Positions 24,081-26,702 of a stretch of DNA of 35,860 bases are shown in pieces. The translations under genes were made by a program, and so were the position numbers. The first letter of the stretch is position 1. The number at the start of each line of letters is the position of its first letter. This stretch comes from Myxococcales bacterium (GTDB lineage Bacteria > Myxococcota_A > Polyangia > Polyangiales > Polyangiaceae): contig JAEUKG010000243.1 in NCBI GenBank assembly GCA_016794325.1, positions 1 to 35,860 on the forward strand, in the 5' to 3' direction. The notes below the pieces were generated by a model, which made no database searches, was not told the DNA's origin, and saw only the letters and a program-made list of their open reading frames with translations.

Positions 24081-25103
24081 GTGGAAATCGCGATCGGAGC
24101 CGAGGTCGTCGAGCGAATTCGGGCCCACCTCGAGGAGGCGACCCAGCGGCCCGCCGAGGTGAGATCGGTGAAGGTGCTCGGTGGCGGCGCCTGCCAGGAG
24201 AACTTCGAGGTCGACGCCGTCCTCGGCGGTGAGCCGCGCAGGCTCGTGCTCCGCAGCGACGCGCCGACGTCGCTGCCGGGGAGCATCGACCGCGCGCGAG
24301 AGCACGCGGCGATCGCGCGCGCGGTGGCGGCCGGGGTCGCGACGCCGGCGGCGCGCTGGCTCGGCAGGGGCCTCGTCCGCGAGGGCTCCTCCGCGTATTT
24401 CCTCGACTGGGTCTCGGGTGACGCCATCGGACGGAAGATCGTCGCGGGCAAGGAGCTCGCCGAGGCGCGGGCCAAGCTCGCGCCCGCGCTCGCGGCGGAG
24501 CTCGCCAAGATCCACTCGGTGACGCCGGCCGTCGCCCCCGAGCTCTTCGACGGGCCCGTCCCCGCGCCCTACGACGTGGCGGCGACCCAGCTCCAGCGGA
24601 TGCGCGGCTCGATCGACGCCATGCGCGCCCCGCGCCCGGCGATGGAGATCATCCACCGCTGGCTGTGGCACAACCGGCCGACGCCCGAGGCGCCGGTCCT
24701 GGTGCACGGAGACTTCCGCACCGGCAACTTCCTCGTCGCTCCGGCGGGGCTCTCCGCGATCCTCGACTGGGAGTTCGCCCACTGGGGCTCGCCCTACGAG
24801 GACCTCACCTGGATCAGCGTCCGCGACTGGCGCTTCGGGCAGCTCGCGCTGCCGATCGGCGGCTTCTCCCGCCGCGAGCCGTTCTACGAGGCCTACGAGC
24901 GGGCCTCGGGGCGCGTCCTCGATCCGAGGACCCTCTTCTACTGGGAGGTCTTCGGCAACCTCGGCTGGGCGATCGGGTGCGTCTACCAGGTCGAGCGCTA
25001 CGTGTACGGCGGGGTCGACGACTTCGAGCTCGTGGCGATCGGGCGCAGGGCGGCGGAGATGGAGTTCGAGGCGATGCGCCTCATCGAGCGAGGGAAGTTG
25101 TAG
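24081..25103 (+). CDS. APH-fold acyl-CoA kinase, LvaA-like
   Basis: 340 residues of the aminoglycoside-phosphotransferase/choline-kinase fold: VKVLGGGACQENFEV (nucleotide loop, about 30-44), LVLHGDFRTGN-type catalytic loop read as LVHGDFRTGNFLV with Asp211 and Asn216, then ILDWEFAHWGSPYEDLTW with metal ligand Asp229. It is followed one base after its stop by a DUF6285 gene, then an acyl-CoA dehydrogenase gene. That order is the lvaABC module of Pseudomonas putida, where LvaA, with LvaB, phosphorylates 4-hydroxyvaleryl-CoA. Animal ACAD10/ACAD11 are reported to act similarly on 4-hydroxyacyl-CoAs. I infer 4-hydroxyacyl-CoA kinase activity; chain length is unknown. Antibiotic resistance is unlikely in this context. 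Confidence 0.85.
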   Translation: MEIAIGAEVVERIRAHLEEATQRPAEVRSVKVLGGGACQENFEVDAVLGGEPRRLVLRSDAPTSLPGSIDRAREHAAIARAVAAGVATPAARWLGRGLVREGSSAYFLDWVSGDAIGRKIVAGKELAEARAKLAPALAAELAKIHSVTPAVAPELFDGPVPAPYDVAATQLQRMRGSIDAMRAPRPAMEIIHRWLWHNRPTPEAPVLVHGDFRTGNFLVAPAGLSAILDWEFAHWGSPYEDLTWISVRDWRFGQLALPIGGFSRREPFYEAYERASGRVLDPRTLFYWEVFGNLGWAIGCVYQVERYVYGGVDDFELVAIGRRAAEMEFEAMRLIERGKL

Positions 25104-25104
25104 A

Positions 25105-25509
25105 ATGCAAGATCTGCCGGAGAAGGAGAACATCCTCCTCGCCGTCGCGAAGTTCCTCGGCCAGGAGGTGCGACCCCACGTCACCGACCCGAGGCTGTCG
25201 TTCCGCCTCCTCGTCGCGGCCCACCTCTGCGGGGTCGTCGCCCAAGAGTGCGCCAGCGAAGAGGAGGCCGACGCGGCCGAGCTCGGTCGCCTCGCAGCCC
25301 TGCTCGAGGGCGTGCCGCCCTCGGCGCACGGGCGGGCCGGCCGGGCCGCGATCGCGGCCGCCAACGTCCAGCTCGCGGCCTCGCTCCGCGACGGCGCCGT
25401 CGGCTCCGACCCCGGCTCGCCTGCCTGGGAGCACGTGATGAAGACGTTGACCGAGAAGCTCGCGGTGTCGAGCGCGCGCTTCGACACGCGCAAGGAGATC
25501 GAGTCATGA
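25105..25509 (+). CDS. DUF6285 protein, LvaB-like kinase partner
   Basis: 134 residues, soluble and almost wholly helical. The N-terminus (LPEKENILLAVAKFLGQEV then PRLSFRLLVAAHLCGVVAQE) and the C-terminal HVMKTLTEKLAVSSARFD match the small DUF6285 proteins I know beside LvaA-type kinases. In P. putida the small LvaB protein is needed together with LvaA for phosphorylation of 4-hydroxyacyl-CoA. It has no catalytic motif of its own. The ATG lies one base after the kinase stop, and the stop overlaps the dehydrogenase ATG (ATGA), so all three genes should be translated in a coupled way. Family assignment is from memory of motifs and gene order. Confidence 0.8.
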   Translation: MQDLPEKENILLAVAKFLGQEVRPHVTDPRLSFRLLVAAHLCGVVAQECASEEEADAAELGRLAALLEGVPPSAHGRAGRAAIAAANVQLAASLRDGAVGSDPGSPAWEHVMKTLTEKLAVSSARFDTRKEIES

Positions 25510-26702
25510 CGGATTTCGCCTTTTCGCCCGAGCTCGAGGCGCTGCGCCGCGAAGTGCGCGCGTTCGTGGACGACGTGGTCATCCCCGCCGAGGCCGCGAT
25601 CCTCTCCGAGGACGAGAAGAAGGACCGGACGACGCTGCGGGCCTTGCGCGAGCGCGCCCGCGCAGCGGGCCTGTTCGTGCCGCACCTCCCGACGGAGCTC
25701 GGCGGGCGCGGGCTCGGCGTGCTCGGCATGTGCGCGCTCTTTCGCGAGATGGGGCGGTCGCCGGTGGGGGCCGCCGTCTTCAACTGCGACGCGCCCGACC
25801 AGGGGAACATGGATCTCCTCCTCCGCTCGGCGTCGCCCGAGATCAAGGCGAAGTGGCTCGGTCCGCTCACCCGCGGCGAGATCACGAGCGGCTTCTCGAT
25901 GACGGAGCCTGCGCCAGGGGCGGGGGCCGACCCCGGCAACCTGCGCACCCGCGCTCGCAAAGACGGCAGCGACTGGGTGATCGACGGCCACAAGTGGTAC
26001 ACGACCGGCGGCGGCGACGCGGCCTTCCTCATCGTCATGGCGCGCACGAGCGACGACCCGAAGACGGGGGCGTCGATGTTCGTCGTCGACCGTCACGCCC
26101 CGGGGGTGGTGCACGTGCGCGACGTGCCCGTGATGTGCCCGCCGATCCTCGTCCATCGCGAGGCGGAGTTTCGCTACGAGGGCGTGCGCGTGCCCGAGAG
26201 CGCCGTCCTCGGCGAGATCGGCGAGGGCTTCCGGCTCGCGCAGAAGAGGCTCGTCCCCGCGCGGCTCACCCACTGCATGCGCTGGCTCGGGCTCGCCGAT
26301 CGCGCGGTCCACATGGCCAAGGCCTACCTCCTGACGCGGCAGAGCTTCGGCAAGGAGCTCGCGCGCCACCAGCTCGTGCAGCACGCGATCTTCGAGGCGG
26401 TGCAGGGGATCCACGCGGGGAACCTCATGACCCTCCACTGCGCGTGGATGCTCGAGCGCGGTCAGGACCGGGAGGCGCGGCCCTACTCGTCGATGGCCAA
26501 GCACCACGTCGCGCGCCTCTTGTGCAAGACGCTCGACGACATGATCCAGCTCCACGGCGCGCTCGGCTTCAGCGAGGACCTGCCTTTCTCCGTCTGGTAC
26601 CGCTTCGCGCGGGCGTCGCGCATCGCCGATGGGCCCGACGAGGTCCACGAGATGCTCGTCGCGCGGGATTTCTTCCGCGGGGCGATCGAGACCCTGGTCT
26701 GA
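25506..26702 (+). CDS. Acyl-CoA dehydrogenase of ACAD10/11 type, LvaC-like
   Basis: 398 residues with the complete acyl-CoA dehydrogenase fold: FVDDVVIPAE near 20, LPTELGGRGLGVLGMCALF, the FAD/substrate loop TSGFSMTEPAPGAGADPGNL, GHKWYTTGGGDAAFLIVMAR, VRVPESAVLGEIGEGF, RQSFGKELARHQLVQ, and IQLHGALGFSEDLP. The catalytic base position near the C-terminus reads RIADGPDEVH, giving Asp375 where MCAD has Glu376; this Asp form is characteristic of the ACAD10/11/LvaC branch. In the Lva pathway the partner removes the 4-phosphate and yields the 3-hydroxyacyl-CoA, bypassing the blocked beta-oxidation of 4-hydroxy acids. No LvaD/LvaE-type genes follow; the product may enter general beta-oxidation. Convergent with the next gene. 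Confidence 0.9.
   Translation: MTDFAFSPELEALRREVRAFVDDVVIPAEAAILSEDEKKDRTTLRALRERARAAGLFVPHLPTELGGRGLGVLGMCALFREMGRSPVGAAVFNCDAPDQGNMDLLLRSASPEIKAKWLGPLTRGEITSGFSMTEPAPGAGADPGNLRTRARKDGSDWVIDGHKWYTTGGGDAAFLIVMARTSDDPKTGASMFVVDRHAPGVVHVRDVPVMCPPILVHREAEFRYEGVRVPESAVLGEIGEGFRLAQKRLVPARLTHCMRWLGLADRAVHMAKAYLLTRQSFGKELARHQLVQHAIFEAVQGIHAGNLMTLHCAWMLERGQDREARPYSSMAKHHVARLLCKTLDDMIQLHGALGFSEDLPFSVWYRFARASRIADGPDEVHEMLVARDFFRGAIETLV

Follow-up and report, generated by a model that had tools for sequence, protein, structure and literature searches.

The entry of 4-hydroxyacyl-CoAs into β-oxidation by way of a phosphorylated intermediate is chemistry already known from Pseudomonas and from mammals. 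In the mammalian enzyme ACAD11, residues R626, H634 and R637 bind the 4-phosphate of the substrate and D753 acts as the base, and mutants of R626, H634 or R637 leave the phospho-intermediate (PMC12440821). For the lva operon of Pseudomonas, a published account cites both a pulldown of LvaA with LvaB and a 2017 report of homologues in alpha-, beta- and gammaproteobacteria (PMC6692424), and orthologues from Burkholderia have been assayed (PMC11342911). As the bacterial reference we used a complete, annotated lva operon from a Pseudomonas aeruginosa plasmid, the LvaC of which is not the KT2440 protein itself; this operon has the published gene order (PMC6692424), and its lvaB is annotated as a 4-hydroxypentanoyl-CoA kinase subunit. 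The cassette described here belongs to a separate branch, and its comparison with relatives indicates which kinases require the small third protein, a rule that seems to be new. In the open-licence literature we found no earlier report of such a cassette in this branch or in these phyla.

The cassette lies in a window of 35,860 nucleotides, the whole stretch of DNA analysed and an entire contig, belonging to an assembly of 8.7 Mb (88% complete) whose closest named relatives are Myxococcota, namely a Myxococcales MAG and Sorangium. Three coupled ORFs occupy positions 24081-26702: the kinase gene is separated by a 1-base gap from that of a DUF6285 protein, which in turn overlaps the dehydrogenase gene by the 4 bases ATGA (Table 1). 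The sequence AAGGAG stands a few bases 5' of the dehydrogenase start, and all three genes have 93-96% GC at the third codon position. An earlier note had described an APH-fold kinase with HGD and DWE motifs, a 134-residue protein and a dehydrogenase with Asp375, coupled in just this manner, and its coordinates, frames and motifs were all reproduced. The genome has one copy each of DUF6285 and of the LvaA-class kinase. Upstream of the cassette, 22141-23136 encodes a response regulator-GGDEF diguanylate cyclase. Downstream, at 26721-30490, a minus-strand response regulator with a LuxR-type output is divergent from a 1012-residue multi-PAS HisKA_2 histidine kinase, and this pair is not kept next to the cassette in relatives.

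Table 1. Features of the three-gene cassette, in positions of the window
Feature	Position	Strand	Details and basis
APH-fold kinase, LvaA class	24081..25103	+	340 aa, GTG start; Pfam APH 7e-31
Kinase catalytic HGD, residues 209-211 (D211; N216 after)	24705..24713	+	motif alignment
Kinase metal-binding DWE, residues 229-231 (D229), predicted	24765..24773	+	invariant D229, W230, E231
DUF6285 protein, LvaB-like kinase partner	25105..25509	+	134 aa; PF19802 match
Acyl-CoA dehydrogenase, LvaC/ACAD10/ACAD11 kind, predicted 4-phosphoacyl-CoA lyase	25506..26702	+	398 aa; fingerprint, trees, PDB matches
Dehydrogenase active-site helix RLVPARLTHCMR	26247..26282	+	alignment with ACAD11 and LvaC
Catalytic-base codon, Asp375 (= ACAD11 D753), within RIADGPDEVH	26628..26630	+	alignment column

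The kinase retains the catalytic HGD...N and DWE residues of an APH-fold 4-hydroxyacyl-CoA kinase: H209, D211, N216, D229, W230 and E231 are invariant in alignments of 12 and 25 rows, and D211 matches D220 of ACAD11 via the HGD motif. Its AF2 model (pLDDT 93) has a kinase fold and matches APH-like kinases in a structure search, and its sequence, 35% identical to LvaA of the plasmid operon, is placed by the kinase tree within the clade of DUF6285-associated kinases. The earlier note had called the adjoining small protein helical and had proposed a profile search for DUF6285; the search assigns it to that family (PF19802) with 45.9 bits against the Pfam cut-off of 28.1, and the predicted model (pLDDT 94) comprises four helices, one of them of 38 residues. 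LvaB of the plasmid operon belongs to the same Pfam family (85 bits), at about 21% identity to the window protein. Despite the confident model, no significant fold match was recovered among solved structures (best E 0.83); likewise, the PDB sequence search gave no relative of the protein and the open-licence papers no mention of DUF6285.

General profile libraries are less informative on the cassette as a whole. A Pfam search of the dehydrogenase returns three acyl-CoA dehydrogenase domains, and neither the window proteins nor the plasmid LvaA, LvaB and LvaC have a dedicated model in NCBIfam. That such libraries give only the general acyl-CoA dehydrogenase and APH families would suit an ordinary acyl-CoA dehydrogenase that adjoins a kinase of unrelated function by accident, an explanation rendered highly improbable by the aspartate base, the HCMR helix, the clade placement and the repeated occurrence of the trio, amid differing flanks, in different families. 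Ordinary chain-length-specific enzymes have a glutamate base and no HCMR helix, whereas the window protein has Asp375 and the HCMR helix. Its R248, R253, H256, C257, M258 and R259 correspond to R626, R631, H634, C635, M636 and R637 of ACAD11, such that it carries the complete set of residues reported to mark ACAD10/11 and LvaC (R248, H256-C-M-R259 and the base D375); by alignment, each residue for substrate phosphate or base that is essential in ACAD11 (PMC12440821) is present. Equivalents of R248, HCMR and D375 also occur in the plasmid-borne LvaC and in Thermus, alphaproteobacterial and myxococcal relatives. In the window genome, nine further dehydrogenases of near-full length, gathered by search, lack this fingerprint except for the general R253, and the base column holds D in every LvaC/ACAD11-type row against E, G or Q in these paralogues. 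The fingerprint offers a sequence rule by which a genome may be used to predict which of its acyl-CoA dehydrogenases are really phosphate lyases. The closest PDB matches of the window dehydrogenase are ACAD11 and 4hr3; the latter, a 'putative acyl-CoA dehydrogenase' with an aspartate at the base position and the motif in an H-A-M-R form, is to judge from these residues probably an unrecognised ACAD11-type phosphate lyase.

Phylogenetic trees place LvaC, ACAD11 and the window type in one clade (support 100/99, and 100 in a second tree) with the paralogues outside, so that the enzyme groups, as the earlier note had anticipated, apart from ordinary dehydrogenases. Inside this group the window type forms a clade of its own (15 rows, 100/100), and in none of the trees was it placed inside the Pseudomonas-type LvaC clade; on this sequence evidence it is a third branch, neither LvaC nor ACAD11. 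A specific sister relationship of this clade to either LvaC or ACAD11 is unsupported, with 80/86 on an open fork and a different arrangement in the second tree. The earlier reading of the cassette as LvaABC-like is supported, with the qualification that the dehydrogenase belongs to a branch of its own.

We propose, with a probability of roughly 0.85, that the trio brings 4-hydroxyacyl-CoAs into β-oxidation through phosphorylation and subsequent elimination of phosphate, the reactions being inferred from conserved residues and from assays of homologues. The kinase would depend on the DUF6285 protein as an obligate subunit and catalyse the ATP-driven phosphorylation of the 4-hydroxyl of the acyl-CoA, and the resulting 4-phosphoacyl-CoA would be taken up by the dehydrogenase, where Asp375 would remove the alpha proton and R248, H256 and R259 would hold the leaving phosphate. 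FAD would be redox-active in this cycle with zero net oxidation, and the 2-enoyl-CoA product, partly hydrated to 3-hydroxyacyl-CoA, would then pass into ordinary β-oxidation. Structural comparison ranks a 25-hydroxy steroid kinase second among the matches of the kinase model, which indicates that related kinases use other alcohols; conceivably, the window kinase might then target a different hydroxyl position or another alcohol, such as one in the side chain of a steroid, leaving the dehydrogenase to remove that phosphate. We regard this as rather improbable, because the dehydrogenase retains the exact ACAD11 residues modelled around the 4-phosphate, and because ACAD10-dependent phosphorylation in cells, for which 4-, 5- and 6-hydroxyhexanoate were tested, was assigned to the 4-hydroxy acid (PMC11342911).

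Of 269 Myxococcota genomes, 21 encode the window-type dehydrogenase, with scores of 642-707 bits (the next full-length class begins at 484). DUF6285 adjoins it in 18 of these 21, most of which have the full trio, and the flanks vary from genome to genome; this conservation amid varying flanks argues that the trio is not a product of chance. Two Myxococcota genomes (L109 and L110) have the window-type dehydrogenase and no match to the LvaA-class kinase or DUF6285. A separate scan of named genomes yielded 18 window-type loci, distributed over Myxococcota/Myxococcales, Sorangium, Planctomycetota and other or unclassified MAGs. More broadly, some dehydrogenase above the E-value limit is present in 133 (about half) of the 269 genomes, and all those inspected among them bear the motif (one as HAMR), in three sequence subtypes; beside the window type, two further motif-bearing subtypes in Myxococcota are characterised by RLGPARLAHCMR/FADGADEVH and RLGPGRIHHCMR/IYDGPDEVH (L100-L108, L115-L119). 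An ACAD11/LvaC-type dehydrogenase occurs in 63/70 genomes with DUF6285 versus about 70/199 without it, in a comparison of two overlapping but non-identical genome samples. DUF6285 alone was considered as a marker of the pathway and rejected, many Myxococcota kinase-DUF6285 pairs having no LvaC/ACAD11-type dehydrogenase adjoining them (L002-L031); at L008, L011 and L013 the pair adjoins a dehydrogenase with glutamate at the base column.

The identity of the natural substrate is approached through what accompanies the trio. None of LvaD, LvaE, a transporter or a PrpR-like regulator stands beside it in the window, and none of the 18 named window-type loci has an LvaD- or LvaE-like neighbour, as against an LvaD-like gene in 37 of 62 other loci; the minimal module proposed in the earlier note, devoid of LvaD, LvaE and a transporter nearby, accordingly holds throughout the clade. 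The neighbouring genes give no indication of substrate chain length or of the source of the hydroxyl. The same chemistry could nevertheless act on 4-hydroxyvalerate or levulinate if the CoA ligase and keto-reductase were encoded elsewhere: SDRs and ligases are numerous in the genome, the best match to LvaD scoring 139 bits (41%) and the best to LvaE 260 bits (37%), and LvaE of P. putida is dispensable, being replaced by other ligases (PMC6692424). However, linked copies beside related cassettes score higher, at about 200-270 bits for LvaD and 510-720 bits for LvaE, such that the matches in the window genome look like general paralogues and no clear LvaD or LvaE orthologue was found elsewhere in this 88% complete genome. 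As LvaR and symporter neighbours are also lacking, and the clade is consistently without nearby LvaD/LvaE-like genes, we consider a levulinate pathway unlikely, if less so than the other alternatives. The lack of LvaD and LvaE argues against levulinate. The 4-hydroxy fatty acid suggested in the earlier note is a plausible substrate; our guess is that in nature the trio acts on some 4-hydroxy acid that arises, by synthesis or release, at another place in the cell. Myxococcota and Planctomycetota would then have a 4-hydroxy-acid catabolism unaccompanied by levulinate genes, through which a general role in the salvage of 4-hydroxy fatty acids becomes testable.

In the kinase tree, a very long branch (2.06 changes per column, 100 SH-aLRT) separates the kinases adjoining these dehydrogenases into two classes, the window kinase belonging to the first (LvaA) class and mouse ACAD11 to the second. 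Of 57 loci with LvaA-class kinases, 56 have DUF6285 alongside: 54 satisfy the automatic distance rule, and in L035 and L038 it is further off. None of the 19 ACAD11-class loci that lie away from contig ends has DUF6285 beside the kinase; furthermore, it is absent throughout 15 whole genomes reached via ACAD11-class loci. The profile used for classification was built from DUF6285-linked kinases, the independent support coming from the kinase tree and from the lack of DUF6285 in whole genomes. At least six changes of kinase class can be placed on the dehydrogenase tree; across six independent pairs, DUF6285 follows the class in an average of 5.6 and runs opposite to it in none (sign test, p about 0.03, on six pairs, which are few). 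One such swap falls within the window's own small clade, in Sorangium cellulosum (L125 and L137, about 4944-5885, minus strand), where a window-type dehydrogenase is accompanied by a divergently transcribed ACAD11-class kinase. This apparently new rule agrees with the cited pulldown of LvaA with LvaB (PMC6692424), and with the assay of an ACAD10-similar Burkholderia kinase in an account that makes no mention of LvaB (PMC11342911). These distributions make it probable that one kinase class cannot do without DUF6285 as a subunit, and this would account for the lack of the protein in mammals. We further favour, with somewhat less assurance than the proposed chemistry, a scenario in which two kinase classes of ancient separation serve the same dehydrogenase and DUF6285 is the obligate activating subunit of one of them; repeated swaps between this two-protein kinase and the self-sufficient ACAD10/11 class would have lost DUF6285 each time, leaving animals with no LvaB. 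The rule would supply a simple reason why the bacterial kinase requires LvaB and the mammalian one does not.

Compared with known systems, the cassette is indeed one outside Pseudomonas, as the earlier note had stressed, but this was already known of such cassettes from the 2017 homologues and the assayed Burkholderia orthologues. In Pseudomonas LvaABC the three protein families and their order are as in the window, LvaB being a DUF6285 protein and LvaC having the motif PARLTHCMRWLG and an aspartate base; unlike the window, the Pseudomonas operon has LvaD, LvaE, a DUF485/acetate-type symporter and a PrpR-like regulator alongside, and LvaC (42% identity for the plasmid-operon protein) lies in a separate clade. 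Mammalian ACAD10 and ACAD11 combine the kinase and dehydrogenase activities predicted for the window and have the identical fingerprint R626/H634/R637/D753; in contrast to the separate genes of the window, their kinase is fused to the dehydrogenase, and it belongs to the class without DUF6285. Cassettes of Thermus and alphaproteobacteria contain the same trio, with dehydrogenases 46-49% identical to that of the window, but in the order ACAD-kinase-DUF6285, and they frequently include an LvaD-like SDR, a ligase or a histidine phosphatase; the last is added in Thermus, Stutzerimonas (PF00300) and Azospirillum cassettes (L067, L074, L077, L161), where it possibly repairs stray phospho-intermediates. 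The Sorangium cellulosum locus shares the dehydrogenase subclade of the window at about 73% identity, and differs in its divergent ACAD11-class kinase and in a genome devoid of DUF6285.
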